A stretch of 64,000 nt of DNA. Origin: Opitutales bacterium (GTDB lineage Bacteria > Verrucomicrobiota > Verrucomicrobiia > Opitutales > Oceanipulchritudinaceae). A program made the position numbers and the translations under genes. The stretch spans positions 1-64,000 of the forward strand of contig JAFIGG010000004.1 of the NCBI GenBank assembly GCA_020831485.1, written 5' to 3'. Shown here piece by piece: positions 21,931 to 53,577 of this stretch. How positions within the stretch are numbered: position 1 is the first letter of the stretch; each line of letters opens with the position of its first letter. The notes beneath the pieces are model-generated. The model had not been told where the DNA came from, did not search any database, and worked only from the letters and a program-made list of their open reading frames with translations.

Positions 21931-21963
21931 AATTCTGTCCTTTCAATTAGTTTCCTCAAAACC

Positions 21964-23814: not shown

Positions 23815-24050
23815 ATGGAAGGTGTGAGCAGGAGACCTGAAATCGAACGGCCAAGTGTGGCCGAGGAATCCGCATTCAAGGCCAAAAACTGAACACAAGG
23901 GATTCATCCCGGGGTTTATAGTAAAGCCGCCGATAACGCATCCCTAGCCGACCCAAATGATTGACCGTAAACCAGTTTTTGCAATGACCCCGATTCGCAT
24001 AAGACATTTACTCCTCTGCCTGAACTGAAATTGCTCCTCTAAAAACACCC

Positions 24051-24635
24051 ATGAGAAAAACTATTCGAATCTTACTGTCCGCAGCTGCGGGAATCTCTCT
24101 CCTGATCTTCTTCGCCGGTTGCGATGGCAACGACAGTGATACAGGCAACACTGGCAACACCAGCAACCGCATCACCCAAGCCAATCCGAATTTCGCCGGC
24201 AAATGGGAACTGCGCACCGACCTGAGCACTGCAGTGGATCCCTGGCGGACCATACGCCTCGACATCGATGTCGACGGCAGCGTTATCGACATCGAAAAAA
24301 CGGTGACCACCGGCCGACGCAATACGACCGAAAACTACCGCATGGACACCGCAAACGAAGAGAACTTCGTACCCATTGCGGTCTGGCTCGATAACCGCCA
24401 CATCGGCGCTTTTCTACCGCACAACAGCGGCAAGACCATCCGCGCCGACTGGTTGGATGATGGCCAGACCCTGAAAATGGAATCCAGCTATACACTGGAG
24501 ACGCACCAGGGTGAAACACCGGTCAGGGCCTACATCGAATACCGGCTTTCACGGGGAGGTGACCGGCTCACGATGCTCGAAATCCGCTCCTCGCGCAACC
24601 GTCCGATCCTGCACGTTTACGAACGTCAGCAATAA
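24051..24635 (+). CDS. Small lipoprotein of unknown function
   Basis: This is a 194-residue exported lipoprotein. The signal MRKTIRILLSAAAGISLLIFFAGC ends in lipobox FAGC with Cys24 as the acylation site, then a Gly/Asn/Asp-rich linker (residues 25-40). The remainder is beta-rich (FAGKWELRTDL, TIRLDIDVDGSVIDIEKTVTT, KTIRADWLDDGQTLKMESSYTLE), which looks like a lipocalin-like or ligand-binding beta barrel with repeated strand-turn units. It is divergent from the symporter operon and 23 bases upstream of the GxGYxYP gene, so the two are likely co-transcribed. I do not recognise a named family. A role in holding the glycan at the membrane is only suggested by position. Confidence 0.8.
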   Translation: MRKTIRILLSAAAGISLLIFFAGCDGNDSDTGNTGNTSNRITQANPNFAGKWELRTDLSTAVDPWRTIRLDIDVDGSVIDIEKTVTTGRRNTTENYRMDTANEENFVPIAVWLDNRHIGAFLPHNSGKTIRADWLDDGQTLKMESSYTLETHQGETPVRAYIEYRLSRGGDRLTMLEIRSSRNRPILHVYERQQ

Positions 24636-24658
24636 ACCTTTAAATTTTTCAGCAAAAC

Positions 24659-26335
24659 ATGAAATCCCTATTTAGCCTATCCCTCAGCCTGATGCTGATC
24701 TCAGCGGTCAGCGCCATGGCCGGCAACAACCGCTCCTACGCCTACGCATACGATCCGGAGGAGTTCGATTTCCCAATGTATTCCATGGAGATCGGCGAAG
24801 GCTGGTACATCGATGAAGATATCGGAGAAATCGCCATGCTTCTCAGCTTGCAGGGGCTCGCAAACAAGGAACGCCCGCAGCTCTACTACGTGTATCCCGA
24901 AGACTGGATCTGGAAGATCACCCGTTCGCTGAAGGCTTTCTACGAGAACCGCTGGGGCTTTGACTTTATCGAGTTGAGTTCACCGGAAGAAGCGCTCGAG
25001 ACTTTGGGCCACCACGCCACAGGTTATGTGGTCTGGGATAAGGATGAACGCCTGACCCTGATGCTGGCCTTCACCCGCGCAGGCCTCGACAATGTGCTGG
25101 TGGTCGACGAGGATAACATTTCCCGGGCCGAAGCCATTGGACTTGAAATGGTCGAGGACTACCGCGGCCAGTTCAACGGCATGACCGACGCGGAGATCTT
25201 TGAAATCGCCATGGACCGCTACTGGGAGCGCTCGAACAAGGATATCGCCGTCTGGCAAGGAGGCTTCTTCCACAGCCGCCGGATGGAACCGGCCATTGCC
25301 GACTACGGCATCTTCCGGGGCGCATTCCAGACCGACTTGTCTGCGAATCCTGAAGACGTTGAGGAAATGATCCTGCACCGCAGAATCCTCGAAGAATTGA
25401 ATCCACGCAGCCTGATCATGGGCTGGCACTCCTACTCCAAGGACACCGAGGGCCAGCACGTTTCCCTGACCTCAAGCTACGGCCACATAATGGAGGGCCT
25501 GAATAGCCTGCCCAACATCAGCTTCAACACACAGATCCCCTTCACTCCAGGATTCGAGTTTCGCAACAATCACAACGTGGAACCCGATGAAATTCTGATT
25601 CCCGAAGAAAAGGTCTACATCTCCCTGATTCAGACCGACAGCATGGGCATCGGTGCATGGGAGCTCGAAGGGCGGGGTGAGATTCCCTACGCCTGGCAGC
25701 CAACCGGGGGTTGGAGCTGGCTCTCCCCGGCAGCGGTCCAGTATTTCAACGAAAGCGCCACACCGAATGACTACTTCATCGCGGGCGGACTTTCCGGACC
25801 GGGCTACATGTATCCGAAACCGATCCCGGAAGAGCATTTCTGGCCGTTGATGGAAAAGACCAAAGCGCGTCATGAACTGCTCGATCTGCGGGTAATGGAA
25901 ATCATGGACTATTCCGAAGGCAACCGCCATGTCGGCAATCAGGACCTCCCTGAAGAGCTGGTGGACCGCTACTACCAAGCCTTCCCAGACGTTATTGGCT
26001 TCATCAATGGCTACGGCGCCGCCCGCACCTTCGACAACCGCGACGGCGTTCCCTTCATCTCCTACGACTACTACCTCGGACTGGGTCGCCCGCCCGAGGA
26101 GGTAGTTGCAGACCTGGAAGAATTGATGCGGCTCAACCAGAAACGGCCTTACTTCCTGCTCATTCACGTACGCGAATCCCAAAGCGTTGGACACGTGGCA
26201 AGCATTCTGAACACCCTGCCCGATGCCGCCGAGGTGGTACCGCTGGATATCTTTCTGAAGAAAGCCGGACAGGCCGATACGATTCAAAGGCGCTTTTTGT
26301 CCGAGGACGACCCAGTGGACTACAATCCCTACTGA
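24659..26335 (+). CDS. GxGYxYP domain protein, secreted, glycan-locus associated
   Basis: This is a 558-residue exported protein with signal MKSLFSLSLSLMLISAVSAMA. The GxGYxYP signature is present as SGPGYMYPKPIP near residue 380. The N-terminal region (AYDPEEFDFPMYSMEIGEGWY, then LSLQGLANKERPQLYY) fits the paired GxGYxY N-terminal domain. GWWxW-type text (QPTGGWSWLSPAAVQYFNES) and LIHVRESQSVGHV follow, as expected. The family occurs in polysaccharide-use loci of gut and marine bacteria and is thought to be a carbohydrate-active enzyme or binder, with biochemical function not established. The gene is followed by a strong terminator at 26361-26397, closing the transcript with the lipoprotein gene. 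Confidence 0.87.
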   Translation: MKSLFSLSLSLMLISAVSAMAGNNRSYAYAYDPEEFDFPMYSMEIGEGWYIDEDIGEIAMLLSLQGLANKERPQLYYVYPEDWIWKITRSLKAFYENRWGFDFIELSSPEEALETLGHHATGYVVWDKDERLTLMLAFTRAGLDNVLVVDEDNISRAEAIGLEMVEDYRGQFNGMTDAEIFEIAMDRYWERSNKDIAVWQGGFFHSRRMEPAIADYGIFRGAFQTDLSANPEDVEEMILHRRILEELNPRSLIMGWHSYSKDTEGQHVSLTSSYGHIMEGLNSLPNISFNTQIPFTPGFEFRNNHNVEPDEILIPEEKVYISLIQTDSMGIGAWELEGRGEIPYAWQPTGGWSWLSPAAVQYFNESATPNDYFIAGGLSGPGYMYPKPIPEEHFWPLMEKTKARHELLDLRVMEIMDYSEGNRHVGNQDLPEELVDRYYQAFPDVIGFINGYGAARTFDNRDGVPFISYDYYLGLGRPPEEVVADLEELMRLNQKRPYFLLIHVRESQSVGHVASILNTLPDAAEVVPLDIFLKKAGQADTIQRRFLSEDDPVDYNPY

Positions 26336-26360
26336 GCGACTTTCCTCCCAAAACAAACAC

Positions 26361-26397
26361 CTAAAAAACCGGAAGGGTCAGCCTTCCGGTTTTTTAG
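26361..26397. terminator. Strong Rho-independent terminator
   Basis: CTAAAAAACCGGAAGG (26361-26376) and CCTTCCGGTTTTTTAG (26382-26397) form a perfect 16-base stem with a 5-base loop. The GC-rich inner stem flanked by A6 and T6 makes it effective in both directions. It separates the glycan locus from the C1-transfer operon. Confidence 0.92.
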
Positions 26398-26568
26398 GCG
26401 GACAACGTCTCCACCACTGACAGTTTTGCTGTGGTTCGGTTAGCAGAAAGGACGAACATAAAGCAGACACAGGCTGCCCAAAACGCAAAAAGCTTCAACC
26501 TGTCTGCCCAAGACCGTAGAGTGCACATGTGTTAAACTGGAGAGACTGAAGCCCACTTGCTACTAATC
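26398..26568 (+). promoter_or_regulatory. Leader of the C1-transfer operon
   Basis: This 171-base leader precedes the six-gene operon. It holds an imperfect inverted repeat, GCAGACACAGG (26463-26473) against CCTGTCTGC (26499-26507), that could fold as a stem with a 25-base loop, and a short palindrome ACTGACAGT (26415-26423). I looked for B12-box, SAM, glycine and tetrahydrofolate riboswitch cores and saw none. No convincing promoter boxes are visible. Confidence 0.35.
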
Positions 26569-27666
26569 ATGCACCTCCTCAACCATACCCCTGCAACCCG
26601 CTCCGAGGTAGAGTCTGTTCTACGCTGTGAATCACCGCAGCGCCCTCCCCTTTTTCTGCCGGCAATTTATGAACACAAGGCCTCGTTCATAGGTTCCAGC
26701 CCCTCTGCGATCTCACGGGACGCGAAGCTGCTGACCAAAGCCCTGCTCGCCGAATTTGAAGCTGTCCAGGCGGATGCTCTCACCGTCGGCGTCGATGTCT
26801 ACAACATTGAGGCCGAAGCCATCGGCTGCAAATTGACCTGCCATGACAGCGACGATTTCAGTATCCCGGGTATAAAACCGGGCGGTCAGGTGCTCCATGT
26901 GGGTGATGACATCAAAAACGCCAAGCTGCCCAATCCACTCATGGATGGCCGCATGCCTGTGAACATTGCCGCAGCCCGCGACATCCGGAAAGCGCTGGGT
27001 GATGCCTTTTGGATCCGTGGGGCCGTCTGTGGGCCTTTCTCGCTGGCCGTTTCACTGGTGGGCGCTGAAGAACTTTTTATGGCTTGTCTCGATGACCCTG
27101 AATGGGTGCAGGATCTTCTCGCCTACACATCCCGCATCGTCCGTGAATTCTCCAAAGCCTATTTGGATGTGGGTGTCGAACTCATCATTTTCGATTCCCA
27201 GGCATCTCCGGATCTGCTTTCGCCCTCAATGTTCAGGCAATTTGTCCTGCCAGCCACTCAGGGATTAATTCAGTGGGCAGCGGATCAGGGTCTGCGCGAC
27301 ATACCTCTGGTAATAGGAGGAAACACGACGCCAATTGCCCAATTGCTGATCAAGACGGGCGCGAACAATCTGCTCTGCGATTTTACCGGTGATCTCGATG
27401 AATGGATTAACCTTTGCCGTTCCCACAACCGGGCACTGCGCAGAAACATCGCTCCAGGGCTCATCGAAAACAATTCAGCTGAGGAAATTTACGCAGCCAC
27501 CAAAGCCGAAGTAGCAAGCTGCATCGATCTGCCGGGTTTTATTCTTGGAACCGCTGTCATCCCTTTCGCAACGCCAACCGAAAAGATTCTCGCCGTAAGG
27601 AAAGCCTGTATCGATTCCTGGAAAAATGCTCCTGAACAGGCTTCAATCCCAAAAGTTGAGTCGTAA
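26569..27666 (+). CDS. Uroporphyrinogen-decarboxylase-fold methyltransferase-like protein lacking zinc ligands
   Basis: This is a 365-residue cytoplasmic TIM-barrel protein of the UroD/MtaA superfamily. I prefer ATG 26569 (MHLLNHTPATRSEVES) to one 12 bases upstream. Its neighbours make a role in corrinoid methyl transfer likelier than haem synthesis, and it lacks the HemE N-terminal RQAGR substrate motif. Text such as GVDVYNIEAEAIGC, RGAVCGPFSLAVSLVGAEELFMAC and IAPGLIENNSAEEIYAATKAEV matches the family. However, the position where MtaA/MtbA enzymes have the zinc ligands HxCG reads PLVIGGNTTP, and the late PGC Cys position reads LGTAVIP, so by my alignment all three ligands are absent. It may bind a methylated donor or corrinoid by another route. 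It is the first gene of the operon. Confidence 0.75.
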   Translation: MHLLNHTPATRSEVESVLRCESPQRPPLFLPAIYEHKASFIGSSPSAISRDAKLLTKALLAEFEAVQADALTVGVDVYNIEAEAIGCKLTCHDSDDFSIPGIKPGGQVLHVGDDIKNAKLPNPLMDGRMPVNIAAARDIRKALGDAFWIRGAVCGPFSLAVSLVGAEELFMACLDDPEWVQDLLAYTSRIVREFSKAYLDVGVELIIFDSQASPDLLSPSMFRQFVLPATQGLIQWAADQGLRDIPLVIGGNTTPIAQLLIKTGANNLLCDFTGDLDEWINLCRSHNRALRRNIAPGLIENNSAEEIYAATKAEVASCIDLPGFILGTAVIPFATPTEKILAVRKACIDSWKNAPEQASIPKVES

Positions 27667-27697
27667 CCCCTTAACCGACAAACCTATCGCCTGATCA

Positions 27698-29278
27698 ATG
27701 ACTTTCGAAGACAAACTGGTCCATCAAAACCAATTCCTTCTCGGAGTCGAATTGGTTTCCACCCGGGGTACATTGGCTGAGTCCAAAGCCGGTCGCACCA
27801 TTCAGTTCTCCCGTGATCTGGCTGCCTCTCCAAAGGTTGACTGGGTATCCATTACGGACAACGCAGGCGGCAATCCCATGCTGGCTCCCGCCGCACTCGG
27901 CAGACCCCATCTGGAAGCAGGCGGAGATGTGGTTATCCACCTTTCCTGCAAAGATTTCAACCGCAATGGCCTTGAATCCGAAGCATGGCACCTTGCAAGT
28001 GAAGGCTTTCACAACCTACTCGTGCTGACAGGTGATGCCGCAGGCAAAGGCATTGCCGGAGGCGCCAAACAGGTCTTTGATATCGACTCGATTGGCCTCC
28101 TGACTCTGCTCCAGCACATGAACGAGGGACTCGATAACACCCGGCCAGGCAGTAAAAAACTTATCCGTCTGGCTCCCACACGCTTCAACTGCGGAGCCGT
28201 GGTAACAAACTTCAAGTTACATGAAAACGAGTTGATTCCCCAGTTGTTGAAGCTCGAGAAAAAAATCGAGGCAGGCGCCCGCTGGGTGATCAATCAGGTC
28301 GGTTACGATGCGCGCAAAATGTCCGAACTGATCGTCTGGATGCAGCAACGGGGGCTGGGAAACATTCCGCTGATCGGTAACGTGTACGTTCTCAATCCGG
28401 CCGTCGCCCGGTTGTTTCGGTCGCAGCGGATACCAGGCGTTGTGATCTCCGACGAACTGGCCGAAATCTGCGAAAACCAGGCCTCCAGCGAAGACAAGGG
28501 TCGCGCCTACTTTCGTGATATGGCGGCACGCCAGGTCGCAATCTACCGAGGGTTAGGCTACCGGGGTGCCTACTTGGGCGGGGTTCACAGCATGGCCGAA
28601 CTCGAACTCCTTCTCGATGCGATTGAAAGCTATGAAGGCTGCGACTGGCGGGAGCTGGTGCCTTCGCTGAGTTACTCCCGTCCAGGCGAATTCTTCTTCT
28701 ACGAGCGCGATGCCGCAACCGGCTTGGCTGACGCCCAACGCGTCAACGCAGACTACCTTGCATCTCTCCAGAAGCGCCCTGCCAGCGCCAATGTGACACT
28801 GAATTACCGCCTGTCCAAATTCACCCACGACCTCATGTTCACGCCTGGGAAAGGACTCTGGAAGCTCGGCGAAAAACTGTGCGCAAATTCCAAAGATCCG
28901 ATGCAGGGTCCGGGCTGGATGCGGTCCATAGAACACGCGGGCAAGAGCCTGATGTTCAAGTGCAAGGACTGCGGCGATTGCTCACTGCCGGATATCGCCT
29001 TCCTCTGCCCGGAATCTTCCTGCGCCAAAAACCAGCGCAACGGTCCCTGCGGAGGCACCCGTGACGGCAAGTGTGAGGTTGAGGATTTCGAATGCATATG
29101 GTCCCGCGCCTACGACCGGCTCAAATACGAAGGCCGCGAACAGGAACTGCTGAACCACGCACCCGTTATTCAAAACCAGTCCCTGCGTGGGAGTTCCAGC
29201 TGGGCGAATACCTGGCTCGACCGCGATCACCTTGCTAACCCAATCAACAACGGCCATCCTCCGGAGGCCAAAACCTGA
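27698..29278 (+). CDS. metF: Methylenetetrahydrofolate reductase fused to a MetV-type cysteine-rich C-terminal domain
   Basis: This is a 526-residue protein in two parts. Residues 1-300 form a MetF-like flavin TIM barrel (LLGVELVSTRG, DWVSITDNAGGNPML, LSCKDFNR, LLVLTGD, FNCGAVVTNF). Residues of about 385-500 carry the MTHFR C-terminal zinc- or iron-sulfur-type domain: CKDCGDC near 422, then CPESSCAKNQRNGPCGG, GKCEV and ECIWSRAY. In acetogens MetF and MetV are separate subunits of one complex, and MetV provides the cysteine-rich part; here they are one chain. The reaction is interconversion of methylene- and methyl-tetrahydrofolate, linking the methyltransferases of this operon to the folate pool. 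Gaps are 31 bases before and 16 after. Confidence 0.88.
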   Translation: MTFEDKLVHQNQFLLGVELVSTRGTLAESKAGRTIQFSRDLAASPKVDWVSITDNAGGNPMLAPAALGRPHLEAGGDVVIHLSCKDFNRNGLESEAWHLASEGFHNLLVLTGDAAGKGIAGGAKQVFDIDSIGLLTLLQHMNEGLDNTRPGSKKLIRLAPTRFNCGAVVTNFKLHENELIPQLLKLEKKIEAGARWVINQVGYDARKMSELIVWMQQRGLGNIPLIGNVYVLNPAVARLFRSQRIPGVVISDELAEICENQASSEDKGRAYFRDMAARQVAIYRGLGYRGAYLGGVHSMAELELLLDAIESYEGCDWRELVPSLSYSRPGEFFFYERDAATGLADAQRVNADYLASLQKRPASANVTLNYRLSKFTHDLMFTPGKGLWKLGEKLCANSKDPMQGPGWMRSIEHAGKSLMFKCKDCGDCSLPDIAFLCPESSCAKNQRNGPCGGTRDGKCEVEDFECIWSRAYDRLKYEGREQELLNHAPVIQNQSLRGSSSWANTWLDRDHLANPINNGHPPEAKT

Positions 29279-29294
29279 ACAAAAAATCCTCCTT

Positions 29295-30236
29295 ATGCCT
29301 TCCACACCCCAAATCAAAATCATCGGTGAACTTATCAACAACGCCTACGCCCGCGCCCGCAAAGCCTGGGAGGCCCGCGACCTGAGCAGCTTCCAGCAAC
29401 TTGCAAGGCTACAGGACGAAGGTGGCGCTGCGGTCATCAACCTTAATATCGATGGGACCCAATCCGTCTCTGTCAGCACCGACGAAATGCTTGAGTTTCT
29501 GCCCAAGCTGATTCCAGCCATTCAGGAGGTCAGTGATATCTGCCTCAGCTTCGACAATCCAAACATCGAATACCACAAGGTCGCACTCAAGGCCTACGAT
29601 CCTTCCAGAGCCCGCGGTAAGGCAGTCCTGAACTCGCTCGCCGCCTCACGCCGCGACCTCAATGCGATGGTCGACCTGATACGTGAATACGACATGCGCT
29701 GCATTGTCATGGCCTCGGAAAAGTTCCTCTCCGGCGGGGGCAGCGCCCAATGCCTGGATCCCAAGGATAGCCACGCCACCGTATTGCAGTTTGTCGATCT
29801 GCTGGCGTCCAAAGCCGATCGTAAACTCGACGACATCATTGTCGATCCGGGCCTTGCCCCTGTCGGTGCCGACACCTATGGACTGGTCAACATTGGTCTC
29901 GACACCATGCGCCTCTGTCAGGAAGACCCCAATCTCAAAGGCATCCACTTCTCGGTCGGGCTGTCCAACTTTGCCTGGGGCACGCCCAACAGCCTGAAAG
30001 CGAAACTGGAACGCGCCTACCTGACCATCGCCGCGCGCTACGGCCTCGACATGGCTCTGGCCAATGTGGAGAAGAACGCCACACCGCTGCCCGAAGGCGA
30101 TCCTCTGGTTTCCGCACTCGAGAGGGCCTTGGAAGAAGGACGCAGACAAGGAGATGAAAGTATCGAAGAAGCCGGCTTCCGTCAGGCGGAAGCAATCATG
30201 GACCTGTGCAATGAGTACCGGAACAATGAAGGCTGA
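29295..30236 (+). CDS. Pterin-binding (DHPS-like) methyltransferase
   Basis: This is a 313-residue cytoplasmic TIM barrel of the pterin-binding family, which includes dihydropteroate synthase and the methyltetrahydrofolate:corrinoid methyltransferases (AcsE, MtgA, MetH pterin domain). I start at ATG 29295, giving MPSTPQIKIIGELINNAYARARKAWE; the match IIGELIN to the IxGExxN start of AcsE-type enzymes supports this. Further family marks are DEGGAAVINLNID, the Asp-Pro-Gly motif IIVDPGLAPVG and HFSVGLSNFAWGTPN, which matches GLSNVSFGLPxR of MeTr enzymes. It should move a methyl group between a corrinoid and tetrahydrofolate. Lack of the DHPS phosphate motif SxRPG speaks against folate biosynthesis. 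The stop overlaps the next start by 11 bases. Confidence 0.85.
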   Translation: MPSTPQIKIIGELINNAYARARKAWEARDLSSFQQLARLQDEGGAAVINLNIDGTQSVSVSTDEMLEFLPKLIPAIQEVSDICLSFDNPNIEYHKVALKAYDPSRARGKAVLNSLAASRRDLNAMVDLIREYDMRCIVMASEKFLSGGGSAQCLDPKDSHATVLQFVDLLASKADRKLDDIIVDPGLAPVGADTYGLVNIGLDTMRLCQEDPNLKGIHFSVGLSNFAWGTPNSLKAKLERAYLTIAARYGLDMALANVEKNATPLPEGDPLVSALERALEEGRRQGDESIEEAGFRQAEAIMDLCNEYRNNEG

Positions 30237-31518
30237 GTCCTCAGGCACGCCGCTTGAGACCCAGCTGCGCAATTGCTCCGCTCCGGTCTGGATCCAGCTC
30301 GGTCAAGCTTTTGACGGTGAAAATGTGAACAAAGACTTTCACCTCGTCTACTCCGAACGCGAAATCCTGTATGCAGGCGAGCAGACTCCGCCAGCAGAGC
30401 TTGTCAAGTCAGGCCAACAAGATGCGGACCTGCTACTGCCAAACCACACGGTCATGCCCGGCCTTATCGAAGCCCATGCCCATCTCTTTCTCGCCGGCGC
30501 TGAACGCGACCCAAGCGTCCGTGCAGAAACCTTAAAACTCGACGCTGAAATTCTGCTGGCTCAAGCCGAAGCCCGTCTGCCCCGCCTGCTGCGCGCCGGC
30601 ATCATCGCCGTGCGCGACGCCGGGGACAAGGACGGTGTCGGACTGGCCCTGCAGGCTCGCTACCGCAGTAACCGGGGAGTACCTATGCCTTATGTCGACA
30701 GCCCAGGACCGGCCATCCACCACAAGGGTCGCTACGGTAAATTCATGGGCGAAGACATGGAAGCACTGGGCGGGATGGAAGCAGCGGTTGCCGACCGCGT
30801 CCAACGCGGTGCCTACCGCATCAAATTGCTGGCCACGGGCATCATCAACTTCGAAAAAGGGGCGGTCACAACACAGCCGCAGATGTCCGCCGAAGAATTG
30901 GTCGCAGCAGCTACAGCGGCCAAAGGCTATGGCAAACAGACCATGGTACACTGTTCCGGCCACTCGGGTGCAGACAATTGTATAGCCGCAAAAGTGGATA
31001 CCATTGAGCATGGCTTTTTCATGGACCGCGATCAACTAGCGCAGATGCGCGACCGCAATATGGCCTGGGTACCCACTTTCGCTCCAGTTCAATTCCAGCT
31101 CGACGCCCCGGAGTGTATCGGCTGGAGTAGCCAGGTCTGTGCCAACCTGCGCCGGATCATCGACGCCCACTCACGCCTGCTGCAGGCAGCCGCGGAACTG
31201 GGTGTCTGCGTAATCGCCGGCAGCGACGCCGGCTCCCATGGAGTACCGCATGCACACGGTTTTTTCGACGAGCTGGAGCAGATGGAACGCGCAGGCTATC
31301 CGACCCTGTCTATCCTCCAATCAGCGACATCCCGAAGCGTGGAGCGGCTCGGTTTCGACCAAGCCATGGGCCGCCTGAAAAAGGGGTATTTACCCCGCTT
31401 CATCCTCAGCGATCGTCCTCTCCTGGACAGCGTCCGCCACCTCCGCTCTGGGGCCACGGTTGTGTTCGACGGCCATATTTTCAGTGGAGGCGATGACGCA
31501 GGACAACCGGGCATGTAA
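30226..31518 (+). CDS. Amidohydrolase (imidazolonepropionase/prolidase-like)
   Basis: This is a 430-residue cytoplasmic metal-dependent hydrolase. I start at ATG 30226, which overlaps the previous stop by 11 bases; a longer frame exists but would run deep into the preceding gene. Two metal-binding signs are clear: PGLIEAHAHLF (HxH near residues 84-86), KLLATG (bridging-Lys region), MVHCSGH, DTIEHGFF and the catalytic Asp in GSDAGSHG. The C-terminal part folds back into the small beta-sandwich (RSGATVVFDGHIF). Embedding between methyltransferase and activator genes suggests that it opens a cyclic or amide bond either in the methylated substrate or in a one-carbon pterin. From memory, the chloromethane (cmu) cluster also includes a hutI-like gene, which would be a precedent. 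The exact substrate is unknown. Confidence 0.8.
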   Translation: MKAESSGTPLETQLRNCSAPVWIQLGQAFDGENVNKDFHLVYSEREILYAGEQTPPAELVKSGQQDADLLLPNHTVMPGLIEAHAHLFLAGAERDPSVRAETLKLDAEILLAQAEARLPRLLRAGIIAVRDAGDKDGVGLALQARYRSNRGVPMPYVDSPGPAIHHKGRYGKFMGEDMEALGGMEAAVADRVQRGAYRIKLLATGIINFEKGAVTTQPQMSAEELVAAATAAKGYGKQTMVHCSGHSGADNCIAAKVDTIEHGFFMDRDQLAQMRDRNMAWVPTFAPVQFQLDAPECIGWSSQVCANLRRIIDAHSRLLQAAAELGVCVIAGSDAGSHGVPHAHGFFDELEQMERAGYPTLSILQSATSRSVERLGFDQAMGRLKKGYLPRFILSDRPLLDSVRHLRSGATVVFDGHIFSGGDDAGQPGM

Positions 31519-31522
31519 AGCG

Positions 31523-33169
31523 ATGGACAAGAATCTCTCCATCAATTCCAGGAGCTGTCAGGCCGTTGTAGGCAAAAGCCTATTCCAGCTGGCCGAAGGC
31601 ATGGGCCTGGCGGTGCCGACTTCCTGCAACCAGCAGGGCAAATGCCATGAATGCCTGATGGAAGTCAGCTCGGGCATGGACTGCCTGACACATCCCGCTG
31701 AACAGGAAACCCGGCTGAAGGAGGGTTTTCGCCTGTCTTGCCTCTGCAAAGTGATTCGCTCCGACGGCCACATCCAAGCCCATACCCTGAACCGCGGGAA
31801 GATGCAGATTGAGGACAAGGCTGTGTTCCTGCCAGGCACAAGCAAAAGGCCACCACTGGACCCCGCCCTTCGGCGTGAGGGTAATGAAATCCGGCTCGAT
31901 GGTGACATCGTCGACAGGGGCAAGGGTCCTATTCTTGGGGTCGCAATCGATCTGGGAACCACCACCGTGGCCCTGCGTGTGCTTGACCTCGAATCGGGGA
32001 AACTGCTGGCCTCTGCAGCCTTTGAAAATCCACAACGATTCGGCGGTTCGGATGTCATGGCCCGAATCCAATACGACACGGATCACCCGGGTCGGCAGCT
32101 TCAGCGCACCCTGCTAGCCTACCTCCGCCACAGCCTGGAGCAAATGCCAATCGATACTGCACGCATTTTCGAATTTGTGATTGCCGCGAATCCGACCATG
32201 CGCGACCTGTTTTTCGGACTGAACGTTCACTCCATCGGACAAAAACCCTACCGCTCAATCACAGAATCCGAGTGGCGGTCAGGGAAACGCAAAACCACCG
32301 CCTTGACCCGTAAAGCAGCTTCGCTGCAGCTTCCCTCCCACCCTCAAGCCAGAGTTTACGGGCTGCCCCTGATCGGCGGCCATGTCGGCGGCGATGCCTC
32401 AGCCTGTCTGCTGGCGATCGAACCACACCGGCGAAAGGAACTGACGGCGATCATGGACCTAGGCACCAACACCGAATTGATCCTTGGCAACCAGGACCGC
32501 TTGATGGTCGCCTCCTGCCCTGCAGGGCCAGCTTTCGAAGGTCGTGGGATAGCCTGCGGCATGGCCGGAGTCGAGGGGGCCATTGCCCGAGTGCGTTACG
32601 AAGATGCGAACGCAAGCTGGCAAAGGGAGGTTATCGGCAACGGTCCCGCTCAAGGCATCTGTGGCTCCGGCCTAATCGACCTGGTCAGCGAGCTACTCCG
32701 CACTGACCAAATGGATTCATTTGGTCGTTTTGGGGACGGGGCTGAACGCGTTGTGATTGACTCCAGATACAATGTTTTTCTCCACAAAAGTGATATCAAC
32801 CAGCTGGCCCAGGCGAAGGGCGCCAACGTAGCCGGGCTAAGGATTGTTGCCCAGCAATACGGAAAGCCATTCGCTGAATGGGATCATTTCTACCTAGCCG
32901 GCGGCTTCGGTCGCCACCTCAATGCAACCGCAGCCAGCAACATGGGTTTAATACCCAACCTTCCTGTATCCAAAATACAATCTCCAGGCAATCTTTCAAT
33001 TGAAGGCGCCACCATTGCCCTTCTGTCTATGACCAAAAGACATGAAATAGAGGCATTGGTGCCCACCATACAGCATATCGAACTTGAAACGGATCCGCAG
33101 TTCTTCGATCACTTTGTTGAGGGCTGTCAATTTGGAATCCTGTCCAATGAACTGGAAGACCTGCCATGA
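31523..33169 (+). CDS. RACo-type reductive activator of corrinoid proteins (2Fe-2S ferredoxin plus ASKHA ATPase)
   Basis: This is a 548-residue protein of the DUF4445/ASKHA family. I start at ATG 31523, four bases after the previous stop; upstream in-frame ATGs lie inside that gene. The N-terminal ferredoxin has Cys35-x5-Cys41-x2-Cys44 and Cys73 (TSCNQQGKCHECL, LSCLC), fitting a plant-type 2Fe-2S cluster. The ASKHA part has ILGVAIDLGTTTVAL near residue 140 and IMDLGTNTELILG, both phosphate loops, and PAGPAFEGRGIACGM. RACo uses ATP to reduce inactive cob(II)alamin to cob(I)alamin in corrinoid iron-sulfur or methyltransferase systems. Its presence is the strongest sign that a corrinoid protein belongs to this pathway, even though none is encoded here. 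Confidence 0.9.
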   Translation: MDKNLSINSRSCQAVVGKSLFQLAEGMGLAVPTSCNQQGKCHECLMEVSSGMDCLTHPAEQETRLKEGFRLSCLCKVIRSDGHIQAHTLNRGKMQIEDKAVFLPGTSKRPPLDPALRREGNEIRLDGDIVDRGKGPILGVAIDLGTTTVALRVLDLESGKLLASAAFENPQRFGGSDVMARIQYDTDHPGRQLQRTLLAYLRHSLEQMPIDTARIFEFVIAANPTMRDLFFGLNVHSIGQKPYRSITESEWRSGKRKTTALTRKAASLQLPSHPQARVYGLPLIGGHVGGDASACLLAIEPHRRKELTAIMDLGTNTELILGNQDRLMVASCPAGPAFEGRGIACGMAGVEGAIARVRYEDANASWQREVIGNGPAQGICGSGLIDLVSELLRTDQMDSFGRFGDGAERVVIDSRYNVFLHKSDINQLAQAKGANVAGLRIVAQQYGKPFAEWDHFYLAGGFGRHLNATAASNMGLIPNLPVSKIQSPGNLSIEGATIALLSMTKRHEIEALVPTIQHIELETDPQFFDHFVEGCQFGILSNELEDLP

Positions 33170-33792
33170 AAGCTTTTGAAACCTGCACAGCTCCGGAAGT
33201 GCCCGAAGCCACATACAAACGATTTCTTCGATTTCCCCCAACGAGAGCCCTTGAAGGAGCGATGGCCGAAGCCGCCGATTGGGCCCGAAACTGGTATGCT
33301 GAATACGGCCGGCCATGGATAGCTCATACAGCTGTTGAGATGGAGATTAAGAACGGTCAGCAACTAGTGGTCGAGGGCTTGCCAATGGGAGATGCTCGCA
33401 TCGCGCAATTCTTTGGCCGGGTATCCGGAGAGGGACGGCTGGTATTTGCCTGTGCGGGGATAGAGGCCGAGCATGAAGCTCAGCGGCTTTGGGATGCAGA
33501 TGAGCCGGATACCTATTACTTTTTAGAAGCATACTCGGCTGCTGTCACTGAATCTCTGCTGACTCGACTGAGGGCTCAACTACAAGCCAGGGAGAGCGCA
33601 CACACCTGGACCTCACACCGATGTCCCGGCCACGGCAAATGGAACATTCTCGACAATCTGCAACTGCTGCGCATCGCGCGCCAATCGCTGGAACTGCCTC
33701 TGGAAGTCGAAGTATTGCAAAGCGGCATGCTGCGTCCTAAGAAGTCGCTACTGGGACTTATGGGGCGCAGGCTTCAGGCGCCCGATGCATGA
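33166..33792 (+). CDS. Stand-alone protein resembling the MetH cobalamin-reactivation domain
   Basis: This is a 208-residue cytoplasmic protein whose start overlaps the RACo stop by ATGA. The C-terminal part reads SHRCPGHGKWNILDNLQLL, then VEVLQSGMLRPKKSLLGLMG. It parallels the MetH activation domain, where a SPGY(G)xWP segment binds SAM and a later LTESxxMxPxxSVSG segment closes the site. The N-terminal half is alpha-helical with RFLRFPPTRALEGAMAEAADWARNWY and VFACAGIEAEHEAQRLWD, matching the helmet-shaped domain core. In MetH this domain uses SAM to remethylate cob(II)alamin; stand-alone forms occur next to corrinoid methyltransferases. Together with RACo it gives the operon two ways to rescue a corrinoid. 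It ends 12 bases from the convergent PP2C gene. Confidence 0.68.
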   Translation: MKAFETCTAPEVPEATYKRFLRFPPTRALEGAMAEAADWARNWYAEYGRPWIAHTAVEMEIKNGQQLVVEGLPMGDARIAQFFGRVSGEGRLVFACAGIEAEHEAQRLWDADEPDTYYFLEAYSAAVTESLLTRLRAQLQARESAHTWTSHRCPGHGKWNILDNLQLLRIARQSLELPLEVEVLQSGMLRPKKSLLGLMGRRLQAPDA

Positions 33793-33804: not shown

Positions 33805-35286
33805 TTACTCGTCGGCGGGAACACCTTCATCCGTCTGGGCGGCCTCTGTTTCCAATTGCTCGACCAAACCGGCCAGTGCGTTCACGCGCTCGACCAACTG
33901 CATCAATCGACCGGTCAGTTGGCGTTGGAGCGATTCTTCGGTCTCGTTTAGGGAAAACTCCAACTCGTTGATCAAACCTTCAATCTCCGACACTTGACCC
34001 TCAAGTTCTTCCTGACGGGCAGCCACTCCCCGCAAGGTTGCAATTTCGACCCTTTGAATCTCAAACGAACTGCGCAACTCGCTGACATCACTGACCAGGC
34101 CCGCATTTCGCTGATCTATCGTATTGAAGCGGGTTTGAATTTCCGCCTCCAGATCGCCCCTACTGTCGTGCATTGCCTCCAGTCCGGAAACTACCCGGTC
34201 AAAATCGGTAGTCAACGTTTCCAAATCGGATTGAAGCACCGCAATCCGGCCTGAATTGAGGTTGGCAAAAATCAAGGTGATGACAAAGGTCAGTAAAAAA
34301 ACCAAAACACAAGCCAGGCCAAAAAAGAGGCGGGAAACAGGTTTTTCAATTAAGTTTGAAAGTATGCGATACATGGGAGGCCTCTCCTGAGAGGGTAAAG
34401 TGGTTTTCAATGAATGATTGGGTTGGGTTTTTGAAGAATCGTCCGGCTTGGAACCTTCCGACAGCAAGACGACAGTCAAATTGTCGCGCCCGGAACAGCG
34501 GTTGCCCTCTGCTATAAGTTTTTCTGCGGCATTTGCCAGGCTGCCACCCTTATCCAGAATTTCCGCGAGAATCTCCTGTAAATCCGAGGCAAGCAGTCGG
34601 TCCGTCAGACCGTCACTACAAAGTAGATACAAATCGCCACTGCGGTATTCGAAAAAATCAATCGCCACATCGAGCTTGCGGTCTTCCATGCCCATGGCCT
34701 GCTCAATTTCGTTCTTGCCGGCCCATTCGAGAGACTCCTCCTCAGTAATCCGGCCACTGGCACGCATGCGGCCCACCCGACTCTGATCTACCGATAGCTG
34801 CTCAAACTGACCTTCCCGCAGGCGATAGATCCGACTGTCACCCACCTGGGCAATACAAATCCGCGAACCCCTCAACCAAAGCGCTGAAAGCGTCGTTCCC
34901 ATGCCTTCCCGATCGGCATCTTTCCGGCCTTCCTCTATCAGCTTAAAATGGGTTTCCTCAGCCGATTCCCGCAACAGATCCCCGCCATCCTGTAAACTCG
35001 GCGCAGGGTCGATCTGCAAACGCTTGCGCATCTCGCACGGCAACTGATTGACCACGAAGCGACTGGCATAATCACCGGCGTTGCCCCCGCCCATACCGTC
35101 GCAAACCAGAGCCAGCAGGTTGTCGCGACCACAGCTTCCAGAACGGCGATCAAGCCCCTGCAAGCAGTCCTGCCCATCCGACAGGCTGATTAGTCCGCAG
35201 GCATCTTCGTTGCGCTTGCGCACCCGGCCGACATGGGTAACAGCAGCATACTGTATTGAAGATTGATTCGATTTCGCTGTTGTCAT
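33805..35286 (-). CDS. PP2C-type Ser/Thr phosphatase with membrane anchor and coiled-coil tail
   Basis: This is a 493-residue protein. Residues 12-275 form the PP2C domain with all metal-binding motifs: RNEDACG (25-31), CDGMGGG (62-68), GMGTTLSA (128-135), GDSRIYRL (149-156), CSDGLTD (223-229) and GRDN (266-269). A linker follows, then one transmembrane helix at about 321-341. The rest (about 345-480) is a long heptad-rich coiled coil outside the cytoplasm, ending in an acidic tail. The catalytic domain would face the cytoplasm. It is the last gene of a three-gene minus-strand set and overlaps the FHA gene by ATGA. It is the probable counterpart of the membrane kinase at 46700, reversing phosphorylation read by the FHA protein. 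Confidence 0.9.
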   Translation of the reverse strand: MTTAKSNQSSIQYAAVTHVGRVRKRNEDACGLISLSDGQDCLQGLDRRSGSCGRDNLLALVCDGMGGGNAGDYASRFVVNQLPCEMRKRLQIDPAPSLQDGGDLLRESAEETHFKLIEEGRKDADREGMGTTLSALWLRGSRICIAQVGDSRIYRLREGQFEQLSVDQSRVGRMRASGRITEEESLEWAGKNEIEQAMGMEDRKLDVAIDFFEYRSGDLYLLCSDGLTDRLLASDLQEILAEILDKGGSLANAAEKLIAEGNRCSGRDNLTVVLLSEGSKPDDSSKTQPNHSLKTTLPSQERPPMYRILSNLIEKPVSRLFFGLACVLVFLLTFVITLIFANLNSGRIAVLQSDLETLTTDFDRVVSGLEAMHDSRGDLEAEIQTRFNTIDQRNAGLVSDVSELRSSFEIQRVEIATLRGVAARQEELEGQVSEIEGLINELEFSLNETEESLQRQLTGRLMQLVERVNALAGLVEQLETEAAQTDEGVPADE

Positions 35287-36512
35287 GATTCGCCTTTATC
35301 CTGTGCGTATTCGAACGCGTTTAAACCAGCCGTCGACAGCCGCCATTTCCCTTCCGGCAAGCGTTCAATCATTTCCAGCCAGTCGATTGCCTGGCCATTG
35401 GGCCCCGTGTATTCAAATCCTCCGTCGCGCCGCTTCAGAAAAATCTCAGGCTCACTCTCGGACAAGCTGCCTTTCCAGGCCTCCAGGATCAAAAGCACAT
35501 CCTCTTTAATCAGGTCCAGTCGATGAAGCCGCAAAGCCACCAACCGCTGGGCGTTGCTGCCGGCAGCCTCTGCCAGAACCTGACTGGCCGTGAAGTATTC
35601 GATTCGCCAGTGCGGGACACTTTCCGCGGCAGCCTGAGTCGTCAATTGCAGGGCATCGCCACGACCCGGCTGCAAAATTTCCGACTGGATTCGCTGACCC
35701 TCCAGACAGGTTCCGCCAGTCGACGGCGAGCGGCCTTTTTCAGACAAACTTCCATCCTGCAGCAAGACCATGCCATTGACCGCCTCAATGCGAAAGTGCT
35801 TTCGACTGATGCGGCGATTGGCCAGATCTTCCTCCTTACCACCATCCGGATGCCGAACCCGAACCATAACATCGCAATCCCGACTCCGGCCAAAGACAAC
35901 TGCAGGCAGTGTCAGCACATGAATCCGATCGCCCGTTTCCCGATGCACCAACGTCAAGCGATCCGCCACCTTCAGCTCCACCGCCTCTGATTCAGGTTCA
36001 AGCGGCTCTGGTTCCTTCGCCTCAGGCGAAGTCTCCGGAGCAGTCCCCGGCGTCTCAGGCTCAACCTCCACACTGTCCACCCCGTCCACCGAGTCCACAG
36101 TCTCCACCTTGTCCACTGGAGCCTCCTCCACAGGCTCCAATTCCCCCAGATCCGCCCGTGCCTCTTCCAGCCGTAGGCGGAAGCCCTCGACCAGACCGGC
36201 CGATTCAACCAGACGCTCTGCCTCCTTCAGCGCAACCTTGGCCGCGCCCACACGGTTCTCGGCCAGCCGCTCCTGAAAACGCTGGAGCTGCAGCTCCGCC
36301 CGTTCGCTGGCAACCGTTCGCTCGACTTCAGCACGAAGCGCCTCCACTTCTTTAAGCGAACGCTTGGCCGCGACCCGCTCGAATTTGTTGTCCGCATCTT
36401 CAACCTCCCGCTGATAACGCTTCAGCAGGTCATTAAAGGCGCCTTCGATGGCATCGGCCCCCGAATCACCTCCGAGGCCCAATTTACGCAGCAGTTCTTC
36501 GTGCGACATCAT
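35283..36512 (-). CDS. FHA-domain phosphothreonine-binding protein with coiled-coil N-terminus
   Basis: This is a 409-residue cytoplasmic protein; two adjacent ATGs (36512, 36509) are possible and a GAGGG sequence precedes the first. Residues 1-130 are charged helices likely to form a coiled coil. Residues 132-180 are a low-complexity acidic linker with VDKVETVDSVDGVDSVEV, encoded by a 9-base repeat. The FHA domain (about 205-285) shows VVFGRSRDCDV, the phosphopeptide-binding RISRKHF and a long insert before the conserved NG region, which reads SPSTGGTCLEGQRI. A C-terminal 110-residue domain (EIFLKRRDGGFEYTGPNG) follows. Translation is coupled to the phosphatase through ATGA. It should read Thr phosphorylation placed by the kinase, as Fha proteins do in type VI secretion control. 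Confidence 0.88.
   Translation of the reverse strand: MMSHEELLRKLGLGGDSGADAIEGAFNDLLKRYQREVEDADNKFERVAAKRSLKEVEALRAEVERTVASERAELQLQRFQERLAENRVGAAKVALKEAERLVESAGLVEGFRLRLEEARADLGELEPVEEAPVDKVETVDSVDGVDSVEVEPETPGTAPETSPEAKEPEPLEPESEAVELKVADRLTLVHRETGDRIHVLTLPAVVFGRSRDCDVMVRVRHPDGGKEEDLANRRISRKHFRIEAVNGMVLLQDGSLSEKGRSPSTGGTCLEGQRIQSEILQPGRGDALQLTTQAAAESVPHWRIEYFTASQVLAEAAGSNAQRLVALRLHRLDLIKEDVLLILEAWKGSLSESEPEIFLKRRDGGFEYTGPNGQAIDWLEMIERLPEGKWRLSTAGLNAFEYAQDKGES
36066..36116. repeat. 9-base-period tract NTCCACNNN inside the FHA gene
   Basis: Six units of (G/C)TCCAC lie exactly 9 bases apart at 36066, 36075, 36084, 36093, 36102 and 36111. Read on the coding strand this is GTGGA(C/G)NNN and encodes the Val-Asp-x/Val-Glu-x repeat of the linker. 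Similar GTGGACNNN tracts are found in non-coding DNA at 46641-46674 and 58466-58498. Confidence 0.75.
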
Positions 36513-36593
36513 GAATCAAACCCTCAGCCAAGAAGAAAACCGGCAATTGAGCAAGTCATTCGAAGGTGGGGAAGGCAATAGTCTGAGAGCAGC

Positions 36594-36614: not shown

Positions 36615-36643
36615 CAACCCTGGTATAAACGGCCAGAGACTGT

Positions 36644-38029: not shown

Positions 38030-38062
38030 GACAAAATGGGACTAAGGTTTTCTTGGACGCGA

Positions 38063-50495: not shown

Positions 50496-52736
50496 ATGGC
50501 GCCACCGGTCTCAAAACCTTCGAAAAATCCACACGCTGTCCCCCGCGACGGGCTCAAACGCTGGGTGCCCTTCGGCATCGGCCAGACCAAGCCGAAGCAT
50601 TTCCGCGACATGGCTTCGGTCATCTGGAACAACCGGGACAATCTGGGCTACGCCTGGAAAGTTCTGAGCAAGGGCGTCTGCGACGGCTGTGCACTGGGCG
50701 TCGCAGGCTTCAAGGATTGGACGGTCAAAGGTCCCCACCTCTGCATGACCCGGCTCAATCTGTTGCGCCTGAACACCATGCCCGAGCTGGATGTGCAGCT
50801 GCTGGATGACCTCGGCCAGCTCGAGGGGTTGGACAACGCGCAGCTTCGCAAGCTGGGCCGCATCCCCTACCCGATGCTGCGCGAAGGTTCCGAGCGGCGT
50901 TTTCGCCGAATCAGCTGGGACGAGGCCCTCGACCGCATCGCTGCAAAAATTAGTGCATCCGACCCCAAACGGCTGGCCTTTTTCGTGACCGCGCGGGGCT
51001 TGACCAATGAGGTCTATTACATGGCCCAAAAGGCCGCCCGCTTCCTCGGTACCAACAATGTCGACAACGCCGCGCGCATCTGCCATGCGCCGTCCACCGC
51101 AGCGATGAAACGTACCCTTGGGGTCGCCGCATCCACCTGCAGTTACAAAGATTGGTACGGCACCGATCTCATTGTCTTTTTTGGCTCCAATCCAGCCAAC
51201 GACCAACCGGTCGCCACTAAATTCATCCACGAGGCGAAAAAACTGGGGACCAAGGTCATCATGGTAAACCCCTACATGGAGCCGGGAATGAAACGCTACT
51301 GGGTACCGTCCAATCTCGACAGCGCGGTATTTGGCACAGACATCGCCGACGAATGGTATCCAGTATCTCAGGGCGGGGACATTCCCTTTCTCTTCGGCAC
51401 CATCAAGGTACTGCTGGCGAATGACTGGATCGACCACGCCTTTATCCAGGCGAATGTGGAGGGCCTCCGTGAACTGCGGCAGAAGGTGGAACAGCTCGAC
51501 TTTGAAACCCTGGAACGCCAGTCCGGCCTCAGCCGCCAATCCATGGAACAGTTTGCCGAGGCACTGCACGCGGCCCGCAATGGAATTCTTATCTGGAGCA
51601 TGGGCATCACCCAGAGCACCTTTGGCGCCGATGCCGTGCAAATGATTCTTAACCTGGGCCTGCTAAAAGGCTGGCTGGGACGGGACAAATGTGGACTGGT
51701 ACCCATTCGTGGACACTCCTCCGTGCAGGGCGGTGCGGAAATGGGTTGTTATGCAACCGCGCTGCCCGGAGGCAAACCGCTGACAAAGGAAAACCTCGAT
51801 TCGCTGGAGCAGGCCTACGGCTTTCCCCTGCCACGTGACCCCGGCCTGACCACGACCGAAATGGTGGAAGCCGGCGCGCGCGGACAGCTGGACTTGATGT
51901 ACTGCGTTGGCGGCAACTTCTTGCGCAACCTGCCCGATCCGGATTACGTCCGCGGGGCAATGGCCAAGGTGCCGCTGCGGGTGCACCAGGACATCATTCT
52001 CACCGACCAGATGTTCATTCCAGCGGAAGAAGCCGTCATCCTCCTGCCGGCCAAAACCCGCTATGAGCAGGACGACGGCGGCACCGAGACCTCAACCGAA
52101 CGCCGCATCATGTTCAGTCCGGAAATCCCCCGCCAGGTGGGCGAGGCCCGTGCTGAATGGAAAATTCTCCGCGAAATTGCCCTCAGGGCTCATCCGGACA
52201 AGGCTGACCTCTTTGGCTGCGCCAGCGGTCAGGCCATGCGGGAGGAGATCGCCCGGGTCGTCCCCTTCTACGACGGCATTCAGGACTTCAAAACCACCGG
52301 CGACGCCGTCCAATACGGCGGCCCCCACCTCTGTGAAAACGGTATCTGCTCCACCCCCGACGGCAAGGCGTACATACATTCGGTAGCCCTGCCGGAGCTG
52401 CGGCCGCTGGCCGATCAGTTCCGCATCAGCACCCGCCGAGGCAAACAATTCAATTCCCTCATCTATGCGGAAATCGACCCTCTTACCGGCGCTGCACGTG
52501 ACGCCGTCTTCATAAATCCTGAGGACGCCGGCCGCCTTCACCTGATTCAGGGCGACCGCATACGCCTGCGGAACGAGACCGGAAGCATGGAGGGCCGGGT
52601 GTTCCTCGCCCCCATTGCCCGGGGCAACCTGCAAGTCCACTGGCCCGAAGGGAATGTACTGATTCCGAAAGGCTTGGTTGACTCCCACAGCGGAGTACCT
52701 GATTACAATGCCTATGTTCAGGTTGAACGATCCTAG
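50496..52736 (+). CDS. Molybdopterin oxidoreductase alpha subunit, YdeP/FdhF type
   Basis: This is a 746-residue cytoplasmic DMSO-reductase-family enzyme of the YdeP branch. It has the N-terminal cysteine set VCDGCALGVAGF and HLCMTRLN for a [4Fe-4S] cluster. NAARICHAPSTAAM carries the CHxPS motif in which Cys (or Sec in formate dehydrogenases) is the molybdenum ligand, here Cys near residue 195. SNPANDQPVATKFIHEAKKLGTKVIMVNP binds the first pterin guanine dinucleotide, and RGHSSVQGGAEMG fits the family. The C-terminal domain (TRRGKQFNSL, GDRIRLRNETG) binds the second. The gene overlaps fdhD by 29 bases. No formate dehydrogenase beta or gamma subunit is nearby, so the electron acceptor is unclear. 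Confidence 0.86.
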   Translation: MAPPVSKPSKNPHAVPRDGLKRWVPFGIGQTKPKHFRDMASVIWNNRDNLGYAWKVLSKGVCDGCALGVAGFKDWTVKGPHLCMTRLNLLRLNTMPELDVQLLDDLGQLEGLDNAQLRKLGRIPYPMLREGSERRFRRISWDEALDRIAAKISASDPKRLAFFVTARGLTNEVYYMAQKAARFLGTNNVDNAARICHAPSTAAMKRTLGVAASTCSYKDWYGTDLIVFFGSNPANDQPVATKFIHEAKKLGTKVIMVNPYMEPGMKRYWVPSNLDSAVFGTDIADEWYPVSQGGDIPFLFGTIKVLLANDWIDHAFIQANVEGLRELRQKVEQLDFETLERQSGLSRQSMEQFAEALHAARNGILIWSMGITQSTFGADAVQMILNLGLLKGWLGRDKCGLVPIRGHSSVQGGAEMGCYATALPGGKPLTKENLDSLEQAYGFPLPRDPGLTTTEMVEAGARGQLDLMYCVGGNFLRNLPDPDYVRGAMAKVPLRVHQDIILTDQMFIPAEEAVILLPAKTRYEQDDGGTETSTERRIMFSPEIPRQVGEARAEWKILREIALRAHPDKADLFGCASGQAMREEIARVVPFYDGIQDFKTTGDAVQYGGPHLCENGICSTPDGKAYIHSVALPELRPLADQFRISTRRGKQFNSLIYAEIDPLTGAARDAVFINPEDAGRLHLIQGDRIRLRNETGSMEGRVFLAPIARGNLQVHWPEGNVLIPKGLVDSHSGVPDYNAYVQVERS

Positions 52737-53577
52737 ACTGATTACCCCGGGGATCCAAAAAGGGCATCTTTTGCGACGCCTCGCCGATGGCAGCATTGCC
52801 ACCGCCGAGGACGATGTTGCTGTGGAGGAGCCACTGGACCTGCGCATCGGTCGCGAAACTCTTGCCATCACCATGCGGACGACCGGCAACGACGAGGAAC
52901 TCGCCGCCGGATTCCTCGCTGCCGAGGGCATTATCGACCACCCGGACGACATTAAAGCCATGAGCCATTGCTTCCGTGCGCCGCGACCGGAGAATGAGCT
53001 GCGCGTTTTGCTCAACAAGAAGGTGGACCTGGAAAAGCCCCTGTACTACGGAACCATCAGCTCCAGCTGCGGAGTCTGTGGCAAAACCTCCGTCGACCAA
53101 GTCGTGCAGCGCCGAGGCAATCTCCTCAAAAACACCGCAGCGGCAGACGAATCCGTCATTCTCAACCTGCCCGATAAGCTCAACTCCGCACAGAACAACT
53201 TTCATAAGACCGGGGGCCTGCACGCCGCCGGCCTGTTCAACCTCAAAGGTGAACTCGAAATCCTCCGCGAGGACGTCGGCCGCCACAACGCCGTCGACAA
53301 AACCCTCGGCAAAGCCTTCCTCGACAAGCAATGGCCTCTGAGCAACCGGATCCTCCTCGTCAGCGGCCGAGTTTCCTTTGAAATCCTGCAAAAAGCCCTC
53401 GCCGCCGGCATTCCCATCATCGCCGCCATTTCCGCCCCCTCAACCCTCGCCATTCGCTTCGCCCGCGAAAGCGGTCAAACCCTCGTCGGCTTTCTCCGCC
53501 CCCCGACCTTCAACACCTACGCACACCCCCAGCGAATACACTTCGTAGGGACAGTGAAAACAACTACAGAGGAATAA
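52708..53577 (+). CDS. fdhD: FdhD-type sulfurtransferase for molybdenum-enzyme maturation
   Basis: This is a 289-residue cytoplasmic protein that transfers sulfur from a cysteine desulfurase to the bis-MGD cofactor of formate dehydrogenase-type enzymes. ISSSCGVCGKTS contains the CxxC loop (near residue 115) that carries the persulfide. FHKTGGLHAAGLF and REDVGRHNAVDK are the strongly conserved FdhD motifs, and SGRVSFEILQKALAAGIPIIAAISAPS follows. I start at ATG 52708 (MPMFRLNDPRL), though 52714 is equally possible; the start lies inside the oxidoreductase gene, giving coupled translation. Pairing with a YdeP-type enzyme indicates that this enzyme needs a sulfido ligand on molybdenum. Confidence 0.93.
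   Translation: MPMFRLNDPRLITPGIQKGHLLRRLADGSIATAEDDVAVEEPLDLRIGRETLAITMRTTGNDEELAAGFLAAEGIIDHPDDIKAMSHCFRAPRPENELRVLLNKKVDLEKPLYYGTISSSCGVCGKTSVDQVVQRRGNLLKNTAAADESVILNLPDKLNSAQNNFHKTGGLHAAGLFNLKGELEILREDVGRHNAVDKTLGKAFLDKQWPLSNRILLVSGRVSFEILQKALAAGIPIIAAISAPSTLAIRFARESGQTLVGFLRPPTFNTYAHPQRIHFVGTVKTTTEE

Follow-up and report, generated by a model that had tools for sequence, protein, structure and literature searches.

The first 64,000 nucleotides of contig JAFIGG010000004.1 of an Opitutales bacterium (GenBank assembly GCA_020831485.1; hereafter, the window) contain a six-gene operon that we read, with a probability of roughly 60%, as a catabolic methyl-transfer module, carrying the methyl group of a methylated compound to folate by way of a B12 (corrinoid) carrier encoded elsewhere in the genome. 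The gene set works like the known UroD-type O-demethylase and chloromethane systems, and would be a variant of them whose carrier lies at another locus.

Six open reading frames form a tight cluster on the forward (+) strand at 26569-33792, with gaps of 31, 16, -11, 4 and -4 bases, confirming an initial annotation that had described six genes with gaps of at most 31 bases or overlaps. Domain calls with Pfam and NCBIfam profiles identified, in order, a UroD-family protein that we call UroDw (26569..27666; PF01208, 1e-35); a fused MetF-MetV protein (MetFV), combining methylene-tetrahydrofolate (methylene-THF) reductase with a Cys-rich domain (27698..29278; PF02219 and PF12225); a pterin-binding methyltransferase of the methyl-corrinoid:THF type, MT-II (29295..30236; PF00809, 4e-13); an amidohydrolase-superfamily enzyme (30226..31518; PF01979, 4e-22); and RACo, the ATP-dependent reductive activator of corrinoid proteins (31523..33169; PF14574 2e-67, PF17651 3e-33, PF00111 3e-6), so that these five labels of the initial annotation were all confirmed by profile. 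The sixth gene (33166..33792) encodes a second putative reactivation protein, assigned from its AlphaFold model. Upstream, a rho-independent terminator (26355..26400, + strand; 17-bp stem, -28.7 kcal/mol, z -7.7) ends the preceding GxGYxYP gene and isolates the operon from it. All six frames are intact and keep the family-invariant residues in alignments, GC and third-codon-position GC (GC3) fit the surroundings, and tens of other genomes share the gene set in synteny, far more than chance would give.

RACo has an N-terminal 2Fe-2S domain (Fer2) followed by RACo_middle and RACo_C_ter, the architecture of a 2Fe-2S/ASKHA activator, and the best NCBIfam match of the pterin methyltransferase is NF005719, methyl-THF:corrinoid/FeS protein methyltransferase, as for an MT-II. 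The last gene product had no Pfam match at an E cut-off of 0.1, including to the MetH activation profile PF02965; its AlphaFold model (predicted local distance difference test, pLDDT, 92.6) superposes on the stand-alone MetH activation domain TM0269 of Thermotoga (1j6r) with Z 21.2 over 193 residues, and on MetH reactivation domains with Z 14-16, the next unrelated folds reaching Z 6. The modelled structure thus has the MetH activation fold, which bears out the earlier label 'MetH-activation-like' and, together with the domain calls, the description of a corrinoid/folate C1-transfer operon with two kinds of reactivation protein. UroDw is the proposed substrate:corrinoid methyltransferase (MT-I). 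Its best NCBIfam match, the MtaA/CmuA subfamily TIGR01463, scores 100.1 bits, below the curated cut-off of 235.4, and a search against the PDB found MtaA at 8e-12. Read off the alignment, UroDw lacks the H-x-C...C zinc-site residues of thiol methyltransferases such as MtaA.

Between 26.3 and 33.8 kb, the window has no gene for a B12-binding protein. We searched the genome (3.86 Mb, 142 contigs, 96.8% complete) one protein family at a time and found five B12-binding matches, three in longer frames (473, 749 and ~1260 aa) and two in free-standing corrinoid proteins on contigs C126 (209 aa) and C3 (211 aa). These two are 55% identical, and both have B12-binding_2 and B12-binding domains with the DxHxxG motif in the form DLHDIG. 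Because of them, a corrinoid protein is lacking at this locus only; the shuttle can be supplied in trans, so the pathway is not carrier-less. The initial annotation, which had reported no corrinoid protein here and proposed a genome-wide search, was right for the operon, and the complete lack of free-standing corrinoid proteins that it had named as contrary evidence was not what we found.

Either protein may serve the window operon. Contig C126 encodes its corrinoid protein next to a UroD-thioredoxin fusion and another UroD, and has no pterin methyltransferase, MetFV or RACo; window and C126 therefore complement each other. The C3 protein could supply the carrier too. It belongs to a second operon that encodes MetFV (55% identical to that of the window), a pterin methyltransferase, an amidohydrolase, the corrinoid protein and a UroD with a thioredoxin-like tail, as well as a CobW GTPase, a DUF1638 protein, RACo, further UroD genes, a ferredoxin and a P450. 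Identity to the C3 protein is 44-56% for the corrinoid genes of window-like operons and reaches 65% for those of C3-like operons; by this comparison a true window-type corrinoid gene was not found in the genome, where an assembly gap is possible. The UroD-thioredoxin fusions (L008:11025-12434 on C3; L009:7284-8651 on C126) have a C-terminal CxxC motif (SAGCAPC) and each directly follow the corrinoid gene, one copy matching PF13192 weakly. Also on C3, the 2Fe-2S ferredoxin and the cytochrome P450 (heme motif FGFGPHNCLG) adjoin a UroD gene (L008:18831-20000, L011:14-313), possibly another O-demethylation chemistry beside the second operon.

A scan with the two MetFV proteins (window and C3) yielded 80 loci, their sources being Verrucomicrobiota, Planctomycetota, Acidobacteriota, Gemmatimonadota, Ignavibacteriota and further groups; on re-annotation, three main layouts emerged. 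Type I operons, found in Opitutaceae, run from UroDw and the corrinoid protein through MetFV, pterin methyltransferase, amidohydrolase and RACo to one or two small genes (the first being the activation protein) and a gene of 121 aa, and an AraC-type gene usually diverges from them. Type II operons resemble C3, with MetFV, pterin methyltransferase, amidohydrolase and corrinoid protein, in some cases with DUF1638, RACo and a regulator just upstream, and type III operons of other phyla combine UroD and a corrinoid gene with MetFV, pterin methyltransferase, amidohydrolase, RACo and the activation protein. The gene directly after UroDw, lying between it and metFV, is the corrinoid gene in 15 of 25 UroDw loci; in 8 others UroDw is followed by MetFV and a protein resembling LigM (hereafter, LigM-type loci), L020 and L037 being the exceptions. 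In L031:16108-16901 and relatives, two small conserved genes of ~146 and 118 aa, both without a Pfam match, follow the activation gene; the shorter (118-121 aa) is present in 27 loci and absent from the window.

All 15 distinct UroDw genomes searched (G001 and G159 are apparently one genome and were counted once) have a free-standing corrinoid protein, mostly distant from UroDw. Within the LigM type, such a protein occurs in 7 of 7 genomes with UroDw and in none of the 3 without UroDw in the operon (G002, G003 and G006; Fisher P 0.008, ignoring ancestry). This supports UroDw as a corrinoid-dependent MT-I with its carrier in trans, in a sample that is small and related. We read seven loci of this kind. 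L110 (G001:C4:80001-98000), L114 and L116 are extensive corrinoid clusters in which several UroD genes surround RACo and one corrinoid gene, a layout that suggests one corrinoid hub serving several methyltransferases.

The direction and substrate of the pathway are indicated by an exchange of partners beside UroDw. The 448-aa protein of LigM-type loci, often followed by PurU, matches LigM structures over its length at E 1e-132 and scores 573 bits for DesA (cut-off 800) and 522 bits for LigM (cut-off 580), so that by profile it belongs to the LigM/DesA family and is assignable to neither member. In L105 and L108, UroDw is followed by a Rieske oxygenase with a VanA C-terminal domain, in one of them with a GH51-like gene (assigned by eye) between, and L037 has the same protein after its amidohydrolase. 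Among solved structures, SxtT and NdmA come closest to these oxygenases. LigM and DesA are folate-dependent aryl O-demethylases that make methyl-THF from aryl methyl ethers, and VanA is likewise an O-demethylase of aryl methyl ethers. The corrinoid and LigM forms split cleanly in a tree of MetFV, inside a single clade with good support, beside which the window stands unresolved. In Opitutaceae, one UroD gene is thus paired with a corrinoid module, a LigM/DesA-family protein or a VanA-type Rieske oxygenase, and the exchange of the first two therefore argues for a catabolic direction and for a methyl ether, which is most likely the substrate, rather than an amide-containing N-methyl compound.

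More tentatively, UroDw could be a socket for aerobic O-demethylation whose second component is swapped between demethylation chemistries (corrinoid methyl transfer, the THF-dependent LigM/DesA type or a Rieske oxygenase), the corrinoid form with its new amidohydrolase partner demethylating methylated carbohydrates or uronates; we think this doubtful enough to treat as a working idea, and we know of no assigned enzymes for such demethylation in most bacteria. Neighbouring carbohydrate genes include a GH67 alpha-glucuronidase (L084), UxuA with a dehydratase and an aldehyde dehydrogenase (L066), apiosidase-like (L059) and melibiase-like (L068) genes and, by eye, GH51-like genes within or beside operons (L061, L074, L092). 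As a single donor, 4-O-methylglucuronate was rejected: GH67 occurs in L084 only and UxuA with the dehydratase in L066 only, and the other loci have GH51-like, apiosidase-like or melibiase-like genes, or no carbohydrate genes.

In the pathway that we propose, UroDw would transfer the methyl group of its substrate to the Co(I) corrinoid of a trans-encoded protein (C126 or C3), the pterin methyltransferase would pass it on to THF, and MetFV would oxidise methyl-THF to methylene-THF; PurU and Fhs, housekeeping folate enzymes both encoded in the genome, would then release formate. We infer each of these reactions and its direction, together with the substrate class and the corrinoid partner. A formate dehydrogenase encoded 17 kb away may oxidise the formate: outside the operon, the window encodes a molybdopterin oxidoreductase proposed for this role (50496..52736, +; PF00384 1e-40, PF01568) and the accessory protein FdhD (52708..53577, +; PF02634 3e-66), and in L038, L041 and L044 homologues of the oxidoreductase are encoded a short way downstream of the operon. 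RACo, with ATP and its 2Fe-2S cluster, and the MetH-activation-fold protein would rescue Co(II), which should form often because the organism respires oxygen; the genome has several haem-copper oxidases, in agreement with the 'aerobic-type' pathway of the initial annotation. The amidohydrolase would act somewhere in the corrinoid branch upstream of methyl-THF.

Several observations weigh against this assignment. UroDw is nearer to MtaA/CmuA than to hemE, yet falls below every NCBIfam family cut-off, and its occurrence in operons without a corrinoid gene as well leaves room for another role. Some Rieske proteins of the VanA-type group are N-demethylases, and a BCCT-type betaine/choline/carnitine transporter, as would go well with an N-methyl donor, is encoded on C126 ~2.5 kb upstream of the corrinoid gene. 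With the amidohydrolase in the operon, these last points favour demethylation of quaternary amines or other N-methyl compounds with the UroD protein as the methyltransferase. We consider this unlikely: the swaps with a LigM/DesA-family protein and a VanA-type oxygenase point to ethers, and characterised UroD-superfamily MT-I enzymes of a similar kind use ethers and haloalkanes (PMC13222342). The trimethylamine-type methyltransferases (MTTB) for which the initial annotation had suggested a search gave no PF06253 match in the genome, and a methylamine or betaine system of that family was accordingly rejected.

Also missing from the window, though present in its relatives, are the AraC-type regulator, the 121-aa gene and the second of the small genes that follow the activation gene, and partial decay of the operon is possible. 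That it is a non-functional remnant which has lost its corrinoid gene and regulator would further fit the presence of the UroD gene in 0 of 16 other genomes of the source's own family. In a sample of 388 genomes from across the phylum, UroDw occurs in 8 (the source genome and seven of one other family of the same taxonomic order); a homologue in G078 stands alone, without the other operon genes. This patchiness suggests transfer, although GC and GC3 nonetheless match the surroundings. Against a remnant stand that match, the six intact frames with their invariant residues, and L037 (Lacunisphaera), a type I operon that, like the window, has no corrinoid gene and that has a type II corrinoid gene and RACo within a few kb, so that we regard a dead operon as improbable.

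The catabolic reading also has to be set against methionine synthesis, in which the pterin methyltransferase, a corrinoid protein, RACo and the activation protein would remethylate homocysteine as a split methionine synthase. Price 2018 described such a three-part MetH in Phaeobacter inhibens, with stand-alone pterin, corrinoid and RACo-like parts and a DUF1638 protein (PMC5764234). In type III operons, RACo and the activation protein are often accompanied by a gene of the homocysteine S-methyltransferase type, and the same holds for many relatives in Acidobacteria, Planctomycetes and Ignavibacteria (PF02574 confirmed in L086). However, no homocysteine methyltransferase is among the six window genes, LigM-type operons make methyl-THF rather than consume it, and a MetV-type reductase with a formate dehydrogenase nearby is consistent with oxidation. 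A split synthase is therefore very unlikely here, and a methionine-only role is disfavoured because the genome has a full-length MetH of 1258 aa, including its own activation domain, on contig C52, the longest of the three longer B12-binding frames.

The amidohydrolase appears to belong to the methyl-transfer pathway itself. Its probable metal ligands are intact in a 39-member alignment (HxH 84/86, K200, H242, H262 and D334), and its model is nearest to the Xaa-Pro dipeptidase, Cc2672 and ochratoxin-hydrolase group (Z 38-44), enzymes that cut amides of amino acids; against NF051886 (Xaa-Pro dipeptidase-like) it scores 118.7 bits, well short of the curated cut-off of 500. Among 48 pterin methyltransferase genes with at least 45% identity to the window's and an annotated gene after them, that next gene is the amidohydrolase in 43, and it accompanies that enzyme in several phyla with differing neighbours. 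The profile built from the 39 members matches 34 of 50 genomes, nearly always once and with E below 1e-160, the remaining genomes giving nothing at 1e-60. It is absent from the LigM-type genomes and the two Ignavibacteria genomes searched, and L020's genome has the amidohydrolase instead of LigM. Since it tracks the pterin methyltransferase and is absent from LigM-type genomes, its place is apparently in the corrinoid branch, upstream of methyl-THF. The earlier suggestion that it implies a cyclic or amide-containing N- or O-methyl donor finds no support in this conservation across phyla, nor in the partner exchange, which points to a methyl ether. Finally, a role as a formyl- or methenyl-THF hydrolase in place of PurU or Fhs is quite improbable, although the amidohydrolase has the position after the pterin methyltransferase that Fhs takes in L042, L055, L070 and L071 and Fhs occurs in 8 of 34 amidohydrolase-positive against 12 of 16 negative genomes (Fisher P 0.0014, ignoring ancestry): the source genome has Fhs and two PurU, LigM-type genomes make methyl-THF without it, and most genomes encode PurU whether or not they have the amidohydrolase, for which reason simple PurU replacement was rejected.

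Among known systems, the closest are MtvABC, Odm/Vdm, MtoABCD and CdmBCA, which likewise combine a UroD-superfamily MT-I, a small corrinoid protein, a pterin-type MT-II and a RACo-type activator (PMC8630106, PMC13222342); the window differs in its corrinoid protein in trans, its fused MetFV and amidohydrolase within the operon, its second, MetH-type activator and its oxygen-respiring host. The Cmu chloromethane pathway of aerobic methylotrophs shares aerobic corrinoid methyl transfer to THF and the best-scoring subfamily of UroDw, but CmuA is MT-I and corrinoid protein in one (PMC13222342), whereas UroDw has no corrinoid domain. LigM/DesA-family proteins fill the same slot beside UroDw and MetFV in Opitutaceae and make methyl-THF, unlike the window system as single GcvT-fold enzymes that need no corrinoid and are not in its operon. 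Expression of genes for demethylation of methoxylated compounds has been reported in peatland Acidobacteriota (PMC10805028). Our literature search, with subscription journals mostly outside its reach, returned no report of the operon in Opitutaceae, its amidohydrolase, the partner exchange or corrinoid sugar demethylation.

Corrinoid O-demethylation is known mainly from anaerobes. If our reading is correct, a conserved version with two kinds of rescue protein in an oxygen-respiring bacterium, apparently with relatives in further phyla such as Acidobacteriota and Planctomycetota, would mean that this chemistry can proceed in air. The exchange with a LigM/DesA-family protein and a Rieske oxygenase offers a direct comparative route to the substrate, and the conserved amidohydrolase of the corrinoid branch is a defined enzyme of interest.

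Upstream of the operon (8095-26335), the window encodes three heparinase II/III-like proteins, a class-III aminotransferase, an Amidohydro_2 protein, a sodium:solute symporter and the GxGYxYP protein. In L109, UroDw stands in similar company, the shared proteins being 34-50% identical and one small protein 28%. Downstream (33805-46597) lie a PP2C-type phosphatase and FHA-like proteins, assigned by eye, and then an SrfB-family protein (PF07520) between two large proteins.

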